A stretch of 48,156 nucleotides of DNA from a virus. The stretch is from the IMG/VR virus record IMGVR_UViG_3300045973_000083, positions 1 through 48,156 of that record, one strand, 5' to 3'. Position numbers and translations under genes: made by a program. Every line of letters starts with the position of its first letter. The stretch's first letter is position 1. Below the pieces are notes generated by a model. The model did no database searches and was not told where the DNA came from. It saw only the letters and a list, made by a program, of their open reading frames with translations. Below, in pieces: positions 613 through 25,778 of this stretch.

Positions 613-3516
613 TTACTTTATGGGGCAGGCACCACTTGAACATTCTTGCATGTCCATATCCTCTTCATTAACTTCAACCGACGTAATCGGATTGGTTTTT
701 GATACCATTTCTTCGTACACTTCTTTTGATATTGTTTCGTATGGTGCTTGAACAAATCCATGACCATGATACAATAAAAATGAAATAGATTTGATTTCAT
801 TTCTGAAATGTTCCCGGAGATATTGTTTGATATCGTCAAGATCCTCCAATTTATAATAAACAGTACAACTTACTGAATTATCTGACCATTCACGTTGTAT
901 TCTTCTGATCATATCAATTTGTTCTCTCCATCCATAATCTGCTGCAACCGGCGTTGTTTCAGGAACTTTACATGGAAATGATATAACCATTGTTGATCTA
1001 TCATCTGACCCATCGATTCTTTTATTATATTCAAGTGGGTAACCGTTTTTTCTACAAACTTCAACTAATGGTGATTGGGTAGAGATTCTCACACGTCTTA
1101 TATAATATGGGCCAGCGGGATTTGGATGAACCCCGGGGGTTACACCGGCTAATAAACTCACAGTACCACTCGGTTTAACCGTGGTTAACTTAATACTTGG
1201 CGGAAATCCATGAGCAAGAGAATAGTGAACGTCAAAATCTCTCAACCAAAGATATGCGTCATTTAACCAACTTCTTTGTTCATCAGTTGCTTGTAATATC
1301 CCGGACATTCCAATTCCCATTCTCATATTCTTATTAACAATTGCTTCGGTTTCTTTAAGTGAACATGGTAATGATAATGAATGTTTATTCATACGGTATG
1401 TGTACATTAACACTTCCAAAAGTTCATTGTAGTTTGAAATATTAGGTAAGAACACTTCAGACAAACAACAAGTTTCATAATTATTTAAACCTTGTTCAGC
1501 ACAATTTGAAACACTAAGACCACCAGTCCAATATGTGTGAGAATTATTATCAACCGTAATATCAAATACCTCAAATTCACCCAAATATTCTGTTTCATTT
1601 TTTGATGTATATGTTTCAGATTTATTTCCCTTATAATTATTACTTGATTCAATAATCTTTTCATTTTTGTATTTTTGTATAAACCCAATAAGATTATTAA
1701 ATATCATAAAATCTTTTGTTATATTTACATCATACGATTCTTTAGATTTATATTTACCATTTTTAAATTGTACAATTTTTTCATTATTTGTTGTAATATA
1801 TGATCTTATACCTATTGATGATAACATTTGCTGAACTTGTCTCGATAATTTCTTTGATGCTGTTTTATATGTTATTCGACAACTATTACCATGTTGAGAA
1901 ATAACAGAACCGTCTGCCGAATAAAGACCTCTTAATAATGATAATGTTGTTTTTAAATCTTTTAAATAATATCTTTCCGGTATAATTATATCATATGCTT
2001 TCAATTTTTCTTCTGACGTAATAGACGTTTCAACATTAAAATCTTCTCTATTATTTCCTTTTCCAAATCTATTTTTTATTAAATGTGATATTTCTGAGGT
2101 AAAATAATCTTGATCGTTGCAACCTATCACTAAACATGGATATGTATATGTTCTATCTTTCATTTTTTTATGATATCCATCACCTAAAAATAAACCATCC
2201 ATTATAATTTGATTATCAAAATCACATTTATTTTGAGGATTTCCTCCAATCGTTAAAATAGATTCTGCATCCTTAATTTCAATTTTGCCATCTGGTGTGT
2301 CAACTTTATGGTTTTCTGTACCAACAAAAACTCCACCGGTAGTATAATGATTATATACTGGTTTAATTCCGGTAGACCATTTATTTAAAATTTTTGTCCA
2401 ACCTTCTTTAGACCAAATTTCATCGCCAACATTTATTTCATCAAATAATTTTACACCATCCTTAGTTAATAATGTGGCAAATCCGGGTTGACATGGGTTA
2501 AAACCTTCAACATCTGGGTCTGGATATTGAGTTTCACCGGTTCTTCCGATTGTTCTCGATAATTCCAAATTAATTAAACCAAAAGGTTCACCTTGATTGT
2601 AAGTATCCCAGAATTCGTTAGGAATATCGTCAATATTTTCCGGGGTAACTATTGAGTTATTACTCATTACTCTCCAATTAGGTATTTGTCCTAAATCCCA
2701 TCTTTTTGATTTCAAGAAGTCCAAATCATCATAATCGCCAATGGCTATTTGTGCTGAACGACGAACATTTCCTGAAACGACAATTGCTCCGATTATATTC
2801 ATTATATCGAGACAATCTATCGGTCTAAGTTTCTTATTTGCTCTTGAATTTAAGATTTTATGAATCTCATTTATACCCCAACAAAGATCTTCTGGCCCGG
2901 AAGCAGTTCCTCCGAATCCTTTGATTACAGCACCTTTTGACCTGATACAAACAGTCGAATATGTAAAACCATTGTCCTGACTATAAAAATGTGCCTTTAA
3001 TACTTTTCCAAGTAATTTAACCCAACCCTCCCGGGTGTCTGGTACAATGAAATCAGCGTCGTTGGTATCTTTTCTTTCGATCTTTAATTTTCCTTTTAAT
3101 TTAGGTAATTGATAGACATTTTGTTTCTGAATATTGTATCCAACCCCACTACCTAACATCAACATTTCAAATGCCCATGTAAAGGGTCTAATTGGGTCAT
3201 TTACGACAACGAAAGAACAATTTTGTAGTGATGGTAACCCCAATTTATCAACGGTCTTAGTACCCAATTGCCACATGAAACGACCTGCGGTTGTAAATTT
3301 AAGGTTCATTCTCAATTCGCCATATCGTTGTTTTTCTTCTTCGGTAAATCCTACTTTTAATTGTTTGTCAGATGCGTCAATTTCTCGTTGAACTACTTGC
3401 CAAAATTCCTCGGTTTTTGATGATGGATCTTCCTCTTTTAATCGTCTTGAATAGGTACGTTTAAAGGTAACGTATCCTATCTCCCCCCAAGGGACTTTAA
3501 TATTTCTAAAGCTCAT
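613..3516 (-). CDS. nrdJ: Class II (adenosylcobalamin-dependent) ribonucleotide reductase with intein
   Basis: This enzyme reduces ribonucleotides to deoxyribonucleotides for phage DNA synthesis. The precursor is 967 aa; removing the 330-aa intein (residues 342-671) leaves about 637 aa, shorter than Lactobacillus RTPR (739 aa). Class-typical segments are visible: the first redox cysteine in LQNCSFV (C100), SGNVRRSAQIAIGD (about 248-261), NP-C-AEQ formed across the splice junction (radical cysteine C672, glutamate E674), NNYETCC (C683, partner redox cysteine, 11 residues after the radical cysteine as in RTPR C408/C419), and KPSGTVSLLAGVTPGVHP (781-798). The tail ends C-SSGA-C-PIK, the usual swinging redox pair. 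No small-subunit or activase gene is nearby, which fits a B12-type enzyme, although B12 use itself is inferred. The start has no Shine-Dalgarno sequence. A terminator follows. Confidence 0.88.
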   Translation of the reverse strand: MSFRNIKVPWGEIGYVTFKRTYSRRLKEEDPSSKTEEFWQVVQREIDASDKQLKVGFTEEEKQRYGELRMNLKFTTAGRFMWQLGTKTVDKLGLPSLQNCSFVVVNDPIRPFTWAFEMLMLGSGVGYNIQKQNVYQLPKLKGKLKIERKDTNDADFIVPDTREGWVKLLGKVLKAHFYSQDNGFTYSTVCIRSKGAVIKGFGGTASGPEDLCWGINEIHKILNSRANKKLRPIDCLDIMNIIGAIVVSGNVRRSAQIAIGDYDDLDFLKSKRWDLGQIPNWRVMSNNSIVTPENIDDIPNEFWDTYNQGEPFGLINLELSRTIGRTGETQYPDPDVEGFNPCQPGFATLLTKDGVKLFDEINVGDEIWSKEGWTKILNKWSTGIKPVYNHYTTGGVFVGTENHKVDTPDGKIEIKDAESILTIGGNPQNKCDFDNQIIMDGLFLGDGYHKKMKDRTYTYPCLVIGCNDQDYFTSEISHLIKNRFGKGNNREDFNVETSITSEEKLKAYDIIIPERYYLKDLKTTLSLLRGLYSADGSVISQHGNSCRITYKTASKKLSRQVQQMLSSIGIRSYITTNNEKIVQFKNGKYKSKESYDVNITKDFMIFNNLIGFIQKYKNEKIIESSNNYKGNKSETYTSKNETEYLGEFEVFDITVDNNSHTYWTGGLSVSNCAEQGLNNYETCCLSEVFLPNISNYNELLEVLMYTYRMNKHSLSLPCSLKETEAIVNKNMRMGIGMSGILQATDEQRSWLNDAYLWLRDFDVHYSLAHGFPPSIKLTTVKPSGTVSLLAGVTPGVHPNPAGPYYIRRVRISTQSPLVEVCRKNGYPLEYNKRIDGSDDRSTMVISFPCKVPETTPVAADYGWREQIDMIRRIQREWSDNSVSCTVYYKLEDLDDIKQYLREHFRNEIKSISFLLYHGHGFVQAPYETISKEVYEEMVSKTNPITSVEVNEEDMDMQECSSGACPIK
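1504..2493 (-). other. Intein with LAGLIDADG homing endonuclease inside RNR
   Basis: The intein is 330 residues. It starts at C342 (CQPGFATLLTKDGVKLF, block A), has block B around GTENHKVDTPDG (399-410), and ends with HTYWTGGLSVSN followed by the +1 cysteine C672. The terminal Asn and +1 Cys are the canonical splicing residues, although the penultimate position is Ser rather than the usual His. Two dodecapeptide motifs, MDGLFLGDGY (439-448) and LLRGLYSADGS (528-538), mark a double-motif LAGLIDADG (DOD) endonuclease that is probably intact. Splicing would rejoin NP with CAEQ at the catalytic cysteine. No stop or frameshift interrupts it. Confidence 0.92.
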
Positions 3517-6514: not shown

Positions 6515-7537
6515 TTAATCTTCAATTAATATCTCAGCTTCACCGAATTCAATATCATCCGTGTCACTAACTTTTTCGCCAAAGAGAAAACTGAAATACT
6601 CGGCATTATCTTTGTAATACTTTTCTTTTGACTTTTTTTCTTCGTCCGGAGTTGTCATTTTTAAGAACCCATGAGGAGTTACCATAATTTTACAATCAGT
6701 AAATCCACTTCCGTTTACGTGATTTTTAATAATGGAAATTTTAGTTCTACTTCCAAGAAAAATTGTTCTTTTATTTCTTGTGAGTGAAATTTTACTAATT
6801 CCGGCATTTTTTTCATTACCAAATAAAAAAACTAAGGTTGAATTCAACCAAATTGCTTCACCACCCTTAGCTTTAATCTTTGGTTGACCAAATGAATTAT
6901 CTGGCAATTCAACCCATGGTTGGTTTACAATAATTAAAGTATTTGTATGTTTCTTATCTTCTCTTCTCGATCCGGTAATTCTTTGATTAATTCCCATTCC
7001 AATTTTATCAGCTAAAACTCCGGCAGTATGTTGTTTTCCACCCTTACCTTCATATGTCATTTTACATGGCACAGAACCCACAGAATCCCATAAGAAACAT
7101 AAGTCATAGTCTAACTCACCTTTTTCCTGAGAATCCAATAAAAGGTTAATATAATCTGTAATTTGTTCAATATATTGGAAGTCATTGTTAAATAGATAAA
7201 ATCCATCCCAAGTTATACTTCCGGTTGTTGGATCAACTTCCTTTTCACAATCAAGACCCATTATCTTTGCATGAGCAAAATCCCATTTCTGTTCTGTTAT
7301 AATAAAAACAGGTAAAATCCCTTTCTTTTGCGCGTCTGCGGCAGTTTTAAGTAAAGCCGTGGTCTTTCCGGTATCGGAGTGACCGAGAAACATATTTAAA
7401 TGTCCCATAGACGGGCCGGGAATACCGGTAGCATCCAAAAATGCAGTTCCAAGGTCAAAAAACCTATTTTCCTTAAATGCTGCCTCTTTCGAAAATTTCT
7501 TTTTTATGTCTGAAAAACTATTTTTCTTAATAGCCAT
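6515..7537 (-). CDS. uvsX: RecA-like recombinase, UvsX family
   Basis: This is the strand-exchange protein for recombination-dependent replication and repair. The core begins GPSMGHLNMFLGHSDTGKTT (41-60), with Walker A GHSDTGKTT (52-60). FIITEQKWDF supplies the catalytic glutamate region, and LCFLWDSVGSVP is the Walker B strand. NTLIIVNQPW (loop L2 region) and KAKGGEAIWLNSTLVFLF follow as in RecA and UvsX. The 340-aa length is close to T4 UvsX (391 aa). The C-terminus is acidic (DTDDIEFGEAEILIED), as in T4. It is the first gene after the GGACA-repeat region and runs into RNase H. The ATG follows TATATATT without a Shine-Dalgarno sequence. Confidence 0.93.
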   Translation of the reverse strand: MAIKKNSFSDIKKKFSKEAAFKENRFFDLGTAFLDATGIPGPSMGHLNMFLGHSDTGKTTALLKTAADAQKKGILPVFIITEQKWDFAHAKIMGLDCEKEVDPTTGSITWDGFYLFNNDFQYIEQITDYINLLLDSQEKGELDYDLCFLWDSVGSVPCKMTYEGKGGKQHTAGVLADKIGMGINQRITGSRREDKKHTNTLIIVNQPWVELPDNSFGQPKIKAKGGEAIWLNSTLVFLFGNEKNAGISKISLTRNKRTIFLGSRTKISIIKNHVNGSGFTDCKIMVTPHGFLKMTTPDEEKKSKEKYYKDNAEYFSFLFGEKVSDTDDIEFGEAEILIED

Positions 7538-7553
7538 AATATATATGTTGTTA

Positions 7554-7700
7554 ACTTGGACAAAAACTTGGACACCATGTCCAACCTTGTCATTTTATGT
7601 ATGATTTTGTCCAGATACTTGGACATTATCGCTTATTATTTAATAATCAGGACAATAATCGAGGAATTGTGTCCTGATTATTGTCCAGATAGTTGTCCAT
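7554..7700 (-). repeat. Cluster of nine GGACA/TGTCC motifs between SSB and UvsX genes
   Basis: The 164-nt gap between SSB and UvsX holds nine copies of the 5-mer GGACA or its complement. On the plus strand they are TTGGACA at 7556, 7568 and 7619; TGTCC at about 7580, 7609, 7671, 7683 and 7695; and AGGACA at 7649. Several form inverted repeats: TTGGACA-cca-TGTCCAA (7568-7584), TGTCCA-6 nt-TGGACA (7608-7625) and the long hairpin at 7642-7682. No ORF is present. It may be an operator array, a structured leader of uvsX, or the 3' regulatory end of the SSB message. Confidence 0.7.
7642..7682 (-). promoter_or_regulatory. Perfect 13-bp inverted repeat in the SSB-UvsX gap
   Basis: AATAATCAGGACA (7642-7654) pairs perfectly with TGTCCTGATTATT (7670-7682) around a 15-nt loop. 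It is not followed by a clear U-run on either strand, so it is not a standard terminator. It could be an RNA structure bound by a phage protein or a DNA operator. Confidence 0.65.
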
Positions 7701-7701
7701 A

Positions 7702-8586
7702 TTAAAATGGTAATTCTTCTTCTTCAACCGGTGGTTCACCTGCTTGAGGATCGGCAACCGGTGGTTCAGATTTCTTAATCGGGAAGACAATAGTGTCTTC
7801 TTCTTGGGTTTTAGCTACCCAACCGTTAGTGTCGTTACTCCATTTTGGAGTTTCACCCTTAGCCACCATTTCAAGATAATCTTCCGGTTTCTTTGTATAA
7901 ACATCAGACCATGTTAAATCATGATCCAACCATGCTTTCAATTGTACCGGGTCTTTTGATAATGCACTCGGGTCATCATTCAGAATCGAGTTAATTGTGG
8001 TATATTCTTTACCATTGTTAGCTTTCGCTAATACCAATGAAAGAATTAAGTCACGACCGGTAACCGGGTCAGCGATATCTTCTTTGTTACGGTAGATTGG
8101 TACTATTTTGTCAAAAATACCATCTCCTTTTACTGAATATTTAAATCTCCAAAATTTTGGGCCATCGGCTTCATTGTCGCGGTCAATAATTTTAACGATG
8201 TAAAATGTTTTTGAACGGTAATCTTTTGCAAGTTCTTTGTCAGAATCTACGCCTGTTTTTAACAGACTCTCACGAACTTCGTTCAAAGGTGAACGTTTAC
8301 CTTCTTGTGCAGGGTCATATAATTTTACCCATTTTCCATCCACGAACATTTCGTGGAATCTTACTTCAACAAATGGAGATGATCCATCTTTTGTTGGCAG
8401 AATACGAATGTGTCTTTCTTCACCTTTTGAATTCTTAGGTAAAATTGTTGTGAAATACCTTTTAAGGCGATCTTCTTCAGACATTCTTTCTTTTCCATTT
8501 CCGCTTGCGGACTGTTTGTTCTTCTCATACTGTGCCATTACTGAGTCGAACGATTTGCTACTTGTACCTGTACTTGGTGTTGCCAT
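7702..8586 (-). CDS. Single-stranded DNA-binding protein, gp32-like
   Basis: This is the probable replication and recombination SSB. Its 294-aa length matches T4 gp32 (301 aa). It has a basic N-terminal region (RMSEEDRLKRYFTT), a central OB-fold-like core with R-H-I-R-I-L-P near residue 60, VEVRFHEMFVDGKWVKLY, FYIVKIIDRD and FWRFKYSVKGDGIFDKIV, and an acidic C-terminus ending EEEELPF. The gp32 core normally carries a zinc site built from one His and three Cys; this protein contains no cysteine at all, so the site is missing. The acidic tip resembles the protein-docking tail of bacterial SSB (DDDIPF). It heads the replication block, upstream of UvsX, with the GGACA cluster in between. The ATG is preceded by AATTTATT without a Shine-Dalgarno sequence. 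Confidence 0.83.
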   Translation of the reverse strand: MATPSTGTSSKSFDSVMAQYEKNKQSASGNGKERMSEEDRLKRYFTTILPKNSKGEERHIRILPTKDGSSPFVEVRFHEMFVDGKWVKLYDPAQEGKRSPLNEVRESLLKTGVDSDKELAKDYRSKTFYIVKIIDRDNEADGPKFWRFKYSVKGDGIFDKIVPIYRNKEDIADPVTGRDLILSLVLAKANNGKEYTTINSILNDDPSALSKDPVQLKAWLDHDLTWSDVYTKKPEDYLEMVAKGETPKWSNDTNGWVAKTQEEDTIVFPIKKSEPPVADPQAGEPPVEEEELPF

Positions 8587-8635: not shown

Positions 8636-8666
8636 AAAAAAAAAGTCTGATAACAAAATCAGACTT
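8636..8666 (-). terminator. Rho-independent terminator at end of tail operon
   Basis: The hairpin AAGTCTGAT (8643-8651) with ATCAGACTT (8658-8666) has a 6-nt loop and is followed on the minus strand by about nine U. It closes the unit that ends with the gene at 8712 and isolates the SSB/UvsX unit. The remaining 49 nt up to the SSB start must hold the SSB promoter; I do not recognise its elements. Confidence 0.82.
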
Positions 8667-25442: not shown

Positions 25443-25475
25443 TTTATATTCTTATTAATTTTCGTTATTATTCTT

Positions 25476-25483
25476 ATAAATAT
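25476..25483 (-). promoter_or_regulatory. Putative late promoter motif ATATTTAT upstream of tail tube
   Basis: An exact 8-mer ends 33 nt upstream of the tube ATG, so a transcript would have a leader of about 25-30 nt, rich in A and T. Confidence 0.6.
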
Positions 25484-25574
25484 GTTGGATTAAAAATATT
25501 TTCAATTATTTTAACATAATATCAATTTATGCTTGATTTTGTCATTTTTTTTCCGTATTTTTTTAAAAAATTCT

Positions 25575-25714
25575 ATTGGGCCCAAAACGCCACCAGTATC
25601 TCATAATAAATATTTAGAATAAAATAATTGCTAGCAAAGTCGCTAGCGATTATAATATTATTTAATAATTGCTAGCAACTATAATATATATTAGCTCTGC
25701 TAATTGGGCCCAAT
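25575..25714. repeat. Cluster of palindromes in the sheath-tube intergenic region
   Basis: The gap between the tube and sheath genes is about 336 nt and has no ORF. It contains two ATTGGGCCCAA palindromes (25575-25585 and 25703-25713) that bracket three GCTAGC palindromes (25630, 25642, 25671). Two of the GCTAGC sites sit in a 15-nt direct repeat AATAATTGCTAGCAA (25623-25637 and 25664-25678). A further small hairpin is TTAGC-tct-GCTAA (25691-25703). The rest is AT-rich. Confidence 0.75.
25606..25613 (-). promoter_or_regulatory. Second ATATTTAT motif in the tube leader
   Basis: An exact 8-mer lies about 163 nt upstream of the tube ATG, inside the palindrome cluster. It could be an additional late promoter that would place three small palindromes outside the transcript. 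Confidence 0.4.
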
Positions 25715-25730
25715 ACAAAAATTTGAAAAC

Positions 25731-25755
25731 AAAAAAAGGGTGACGAACACCCTTT
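25731..25755 (-). terminator. Rho-independent terminator after tail sheath
   Basis: The hairpin AAAGGGTG (25735-25742) with CACCCTTT (25748-25755) has a 5-nt loop and is followed by a U-run on the minus strand. It lies 24 nt past the sheath stop. Confidence 0.88.
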
Positions 25756-25778
25756 CTTTGTTTAAACACATAGACCAA

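Follow-up and report, generated by a model that had tools for sequence, protein, structure and literature searches.

GGACA hairpins at the 3′ end of gp32-like ssb genes in uncultured phages

Repetitive extragenic palindromes and other small mobile palindromes are short and imperfect and recur in unrelated backgrounds. Uptake-signal terminators are hairpins in which one specific short sequence, about 9–11 nt long, is present in inverted copies. Intrinsic (rho-independent) terminators are normally thought to be free of sequence requirements, provided that they fold. In such terminators, including those of T4, a hairpin lies soon after the stop codon and is accompanied by a T-run on the sense side (PMC2988022). 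The 5′ leader of T4 gene 32 contains the gp32 operator, a pseudoknot with UUAAA repeats (PMC535899).

The element described here, which follows gp32-like ssb genes, shares features with each of these systems. As with intrinsic terminators, its hairpin lies soon after the stop codon with a sense-side T-run, and ssb is enclosed by such hairpins on both sides. Unlike them, its arms are conserved in a few types that are almost confined to the 3′ end of one gene, its GGACA units are phased at 12 nt, and its form in the window comprises three blocks with competing folds. It resembles uptake-signal terminators in being built from inverted copies of one specific short sequence, and REP-type mobile palindromes in that short palindromes recur in unrelated backgrounds. 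Like the gene 32 operators of T4 and RB69, it is a structured RNA element on a gp32-type ssb whose sequence diverges between relatives, but it is attached to the 3′ end of the gene (PMC535899). A literature search by theme found no description of such an ssb 3′ element, and searches with the motif strings led to unrelated fields.

The ssb–uvsX gap and its array

The window is a 48,156-nt stretch of viral DNA (IMG/VR record IMGVR_UViG_3300045973_000083, positions 1 to 48,156). Genes for a 5′–3′ exonuclease, a DnaB-like helicase and ribonucleotide reductase are located downstream of uvsX. Because ssb is followed by uvsX and both are on the minus strand, the transcript corresponds to the strand opposite the printed one, and the interval between the two genes is the 3′ side of ssb. 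The features of the region are as follows.

6515–7537, minus strand: uvsX/RecA-like recombinase, 340 aa (PHROG 97, E 1e-16; Pfam RecA)
7538–7701, minus strand: intergenic gap with the array (fold z −5.7)
7556–7584, minus strand: block C, GGACA-N3-TGTCC-N7-TGTCC on the transcript (match of covariance model R1)
7562–7584, minus strand: terminator-like hairpin TTGGACA-TGG-TGTCCAA with 7 bp and a 3-nt loop (7568–7584), then G and five T (7566–7562)
7608–7625, minus strand: block B, facing pair TGTCCA-N6-TGGACA forming a short hairpin (motif positions and fold)
7642–7654 / 7670–7682, minus strand: 13-bp perfect hairpin with a 15-nt loop (inverted-repeat search)
7646–7660 / 7676–7690, minus strand: 15-nt inverted repeat, 93% complementary, overlapping the 13-bp hairpin and mutually exclusive with it
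7650–7698, minus strand: block A, three tandem GGACA (7694–7698, 7682–7686 and 7670–7674) in 12-nt steps, phased as in relatives
7650–7654, minus strand: TGTCC of block A, 20, 32 and 44 nt downstream of the three GGACA
7702–8586, minus strand: ssb, gp32-like single-strand DNA-binding protein, 294 aa (Pfam PF08804, E 3e-12; PHROG 224)
8643–8666, minus strand: ordinary terminator-like hairpin upstream of ssb, without GGACA

The 164-nt gap holds nine exact copies of GGACA/TGTCC, all between 7558 and 7698, where 0.16 would be expected at the genome's own rate (Poisson 1e-13). The other 46 copies are scattered across the remaining 48 kb, and the motif is not enriched over the window as a whole (55 found vs 64 expected). 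When all 5-mers were scored over all 160-nt stretches, nothing in the window clustered as strongly as the array. In transcript order, the pattern of copies is F F F R / R F / F R R, with F for GGACA and R for TGTCC; same-direction copies are 12 nt apart three times, and opposite copies within blocks are separated by 8, 20, 32 and 44 nt. These nine copies, the 13-bp perfect hairpin and a gap free of open reading frames had all been described in the original prediction, and each was confirmed, the last at a threshold of at least 60 aa.

The predicted RNA fold of the gap, which had been proposed as a check, has four stems with the motif in each and an energy of −48.3 kcal/mol that no shuffle equalled. 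The gap also folds strongly as single-stranded DNA (z −7.3), and its opposite strand likewise folds well. No Rfam 15 family matched at the gathering score in the window or in eight relatives. The strongest hairpin of the window has no T-run; only the hairpin at 7568–7584 has one (T5), and it is short, with three G-C pairs. Termination in the window may therefore be weak, and the function of its array may differ in strength from that of the relatives' hairpins. The array exceeds in size every relative's element seen.

An ordinary terminator-like hairpin also lies upstream of ssb in 42 of 53 clusters of related genes (gaps of at least 35 nt), as it does in the window, and GGACA is absent from all the examples listed. 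With this upstream hairpin and a dedicated one at its 3′ end, ssb looks like its own transcription unit.

Position, phasing and sequence types in related phages

Loci of relatives were gathered by the ssb or uvsX protein alone, with the motif ignored, giving 316 ssb genes in 74 clusters at 90% identity. The gap behind ssb is only 7–14 nt in 18 of the 74 clusters, without room for the element. In all 55 clusters with a gap of at least 35 nt (window included), a hairpin is predicted; its fold z is below −3 in 48 of them against simple shuffles, and its 5′ arm begins a median of 9 nt past the ssb stop codon. TTTT follows the 3′ arm on the sense (ssb-strand) side in 39/55 vs 8/55 on the antisense side (Fisher 1e-9). 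In the pattern-found set, the hairpin lies 12–26 nt from the end of the ssb match, and uvsX lies 18–849 nt away. Genes are inserted before uvsX in several lineages, and the hairpin remains beside ssb. The element is thus not an ssb leader and probably not a uvsX leader, and the T4-like gp32 leader autoregulation on which the original prediction drew does not fit a 3′ element, the T4 operator being in the 5′ leader (PMC535899). The broader proposal of a structured, conserved element in a recombination operon held: the comparison with relatives that it had called for found the motif, its 12-nt phasing and its position in many of them.

Many unrelated hairpin sequences occupy the same ssb 3′ site, and many relatives have one small terminator-like hairpin there, without repeats. 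The nearest SSB relatives of the window (62–67%) mostly bear other hairpin types. No close relative with the same three blocks was found, and three tandem GGACA units gave at least 120 matches in viral contigs, none of them behind ssb among the matches listed. In four loci (L081, L532, L534 and L548), the gap 3′ of ssb keeps the loop-side sequence GGAGATAACGTCA (one variant) while a GGGG/CCCC stem varies, and this hairpin type looks like a small conserved RNA motif.

The spacing of the units is phased. In the motif-blind gaps, window included, 15 of 18 same-direction RGACA pairs are 12 nt apart, and 35 of 39 RGACA–TGTCY distances are 8, 20, 32 or 44 nt; common descent links many of the gaps, so that the pairs cannot be counted as independent. 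Nearly all exceptions come from the window's own block-to-block distances, and after its pairs were subtracted by hand, the phasing is kept by 12/12 same-direction and 30/31 opposite pairs. Among the matches listed, the 45 ssb-linked hairpins found by pattern have loops of 15 nt (31), of 27–28 nt (11), or of 3, 9 or 14 nt (one each). When all hairpin types were compared, quantised loops held for the GGACA types only. The typical element is ACTTGGACA-CAT-ACTTAGACA-TTG-TGTCCAAGT, in which a second copy is kept inside the loop; as two copies point forward and one backward, the backward copy could pair with either of the other two.

Twenty-two type-1 hairpins, most of them motif-blind and two motif-selected, were compared for pairing. 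All 11 pairs hold in every row, which is partly by construction because the rows were chosen for having a hairpin; the informative part is the both-sided changes at 5 of the 11 pairs (e.g. ACTT/AAGT, GCTT/AAGC and GCAT/ATGC). The TGGACA core is nearly constant, and G-U pairs of the sense transcript account for seven cells of the comparison. A covariance model of the type-1 rows matches only ssb 3′ ends among 53 relatives. Its single match in the window is to block C, on the plus strand (20.6 bits, E 0.03), where the block reads TTGGACAaaaacTTGGACAccaTGTCCAA, the same arrangement as in the relatives' type-1 hairpins. This match weakly suggests that the array of the window is an inverted member of this family.

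The link to ssb is near-exclusive in the scans made. Among the matches listed in a scan of IMG/VR contigs for ACTTGGACA-N3-30-TGTCCAAGT, 89 of 119 palindromes are directly behind a gp32-like ssb, and two further loci are on incomplete contigs with uvsX next; a control palindrome read backwards gave 38 matches in viral contigs, 0/38 behind ssb. One of the ACTTGGACA hairpins that are not behind ssb, a ACTTGGACA-N15-TGTCCAAGT form (L215, 3545–3577), follows a crAss-like capsid gene. The motif-blind set also revealed another palindrome type, ATGTTCCCGACA-N2-10-TGTCGGGAACAT, which gave 85 matches, 84 of which were read; 81 of the 84 are directly behind ssb and one more is in front of uvsX. Its loop is 4 nt in every case, although 2–10 nt were allowed. 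The ssb proteins accompanied by the ATGTTCCCGACA type are down to 53.5% identical and those with the ACTTGGACA type down to 49.8%, and between ssb genes of 50–54% identity the loops and flanks vary but the arms remain exact. Terminator-like hairpins at ssb 3′ ends have GGACA arms in 14/37 cases, vs 5/152 for those elsewhere in the same loci, and three of the latter five are ssb hairpins read on the other strand.

An exact TTGGACA hairpin is present in 33 of 50 phage records and the reversed control in two; the 50 were largely picked via the motif or ssb, so that 33/50 is no population frequency. Most of the 33 records have one such hairpin, and most extra ones are in near-identical phages.

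Hairpin types turn over on a quick SSB tree of the 74 clusters, to which types were assigned by simple patterns. The TGGACA type requires 10 changes for 12 rows, at least six of them forced by well-supported branches, and the CCCGACA type four changes for four rows. The no-gap state is nearly one group, and the window's SSB is on a long branch of unsure placement. Sister SSBs often have different types, which favours exchange of short intergenic pieces or repeated origin and argues against SSB as the reader of the hairpin.

Explanations of the ssb 3′ element

On balance we favour, with confidence somewhat better than even, the reading that the array is a 3′-end hairpin element of the ssb transcript that combines a terminator or attenuator with sequence-specific recognition. 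The RNA hairpin after ssb would end or attenuate transcription, a role suggested by its anatomy, and may also protect the 3′ end of the ssb transcript; the outcome would be much SSB and less UvsX. A putative trans-acting factor would recognise the hairpin sequence as a layer on the shared terminator function. In the window the element would be enlarged to three blocks, with two or more folds in competition, and the function of this divergent copy is inferred. The added sequence-specific role is argued by the conserved arms, the copy kept in the loop and the near-exclusive link to ssb.

The strongest competitor, though rather unlikely in our view, is a plain intrinsic terminator for which any hairpin would do, with types recurring via exchange or a common ancestor and the 12-nt phasing left as a trace of slippage or template switching. 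Position, stability and T-run would suffice for such a terminator, the many unrelated hairpin sequences at the same site suit it, and the scatter of types over the SSB tree is what exchange predicts. It accounts poorly, however, for arms that stay exact while loops and flanks diverge between such distant ssb genes, for the rarity of GGACA arms in terminator-like hairpins elsewhere in the same loci, and for a second copy kept in the loop, where pairing needs none.

The original prediction had also offered an operator array or an origin-like element. Both have less support: the T-runs are on the ssb-strand side, the pairs vary on both sides and include G-U, and most genomes with exact TTGGACA hairpins have just one. 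A DNA operator, at which a phage or host protein would bind GGACA half-sites about one helical turn apart and control transcription into uvsX, would explain the 12-bp steps, both orientations and the dense sites in the window; we consider it improbable, because the T-run has a polarity, G-U pairs appear in the sense transcript, loops are 3, 15 or 27 nt within one family, and the element is attached to ssb and not to uvsX. Less probable still is that the repeats act like iterons, next to replication genes, in an origin of replication or a site of single-strand initiation. The gap contains direct repeats of 12 nt. The AT-rich surroundings, the replication genes nearby, the strong single-stranded DNA fold and the one exact TTGGACA hairpin in most genomes having any would suit an origin. 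Yet the relatives with a small hairpin and no repeats, those without a gap, and the way the element tracks the ssb stop codon all speak against an origin. We give equally little weight to an RNA operator through which SSB or another phage protein would regulate uvsX translation: T4 gp32 does regulate its own mRNA through a structured target (PMC535899), but up to several hundred nucleotides of genes separate the hairpin from uvsX in several lineages, and the differing types of sister SSBs make SSB itself an unlikely reader.

Two further candidates were rejected. An uptake-signal terminator would entail hundreds of motif copies, and uptake signals number about a thousand or more per genome, whereas the phage hairpin occurs once in most genomes and TTGGACA by itself stays at background level, with a genome-wide enrichment in 14 phage records close to that of the reversed control. 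A mobile palindrome of the REP or MITE kind is not indicated either, since the element has one place per genome, fixed to ssb, with no sign of copies elsewhere in the phages tested.

More tentatively, the hairpins could form a class of regulatory RNA new to phages. Each would be a 3′-end hairpin specific to ssb, with a sequence that is recognised by a trans-acting factor; a few types would exist, interchangeable and transferred from one phage lineage to another independently of the genes around them, and the GGACA units in 12-nt steps could multiply into arrays whose folds compete, the window being an example. The recurrence of arm sequences across ssb genes that share only half their residues would be difficult to account for unless some factor recognised them. 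The element offers a ready assay for how the SSB:recombinase ratio is set in these phages, which are uncultured and probably infect Bacteroidota, and a marker with which to follow the exchange of short segments among phage genomes.

Cultured phages, bacterial palindromes and other observations

A DNA search found no match to the region in cultured phages. At the protein level, SSB has only distant matches in cyanophages, and the only cultured phage with a similar UvsX (43%) is Flavobacterium phage immuto, which has the same gene order with an ssb–recA gap of 2 nt. The UvsX likeness to immuto points to a Bacteroidota host, which is likely for the window phage.

The ACTTGGACA palindrome is also found in many bacterial genomes (at least 120 matches), with none near a gp32-like ssb among the matches listed. 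Several Bacteroidales and one Pedobacter have it downstream of genes that encode a HATPase_c_4 domain, and several of these share the same 15-nt loop and the forward-forward-reverse order. Exact palindromes do not clearly outnumber the reversed control in most of those bacterial genomes. Because the bacterial palindromes are in other settings, they do not explain the phage element. The HATPase_c_4-linked ACTTGGACA arrays in forward-forward-reverse order on Bacteroidota chromosomes, which have a similar geometry, are at L408 3149–3181, L438 1738–1831, L456 6902–6990, L466 4833–4914, L414 6782–6814 and L363 1545–1723. Some of the HATPase_c_4 genes ahead of them also have a deaminase domain, and the array regions read in frame as LGQ/LGH/VQV repeats broken by stops. 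In loci L353–L471, many of them from Patescibacteria or Verrucomicrobia, ACTTGGACA-N5-TGTCCAAGT hairpins, whose loop is 5 nt, are common (57 among the matches listed), and some Patescibacteria have several per contig.

Two observations concern other parts of the window. The ribonucleotide reductase (613–3516, 967 aa) has LAGLIDADG and Hom_end matches at residues 525–601, which probably represent an intein. A 336-nt intergenic stretch at 25443–25778 contains GGGCCCAAT inverted repeats and a GCTAGC cluster and folds with z −6.2; among all 5-mer clusters in the window, that of CTAGC ranks third in strength.
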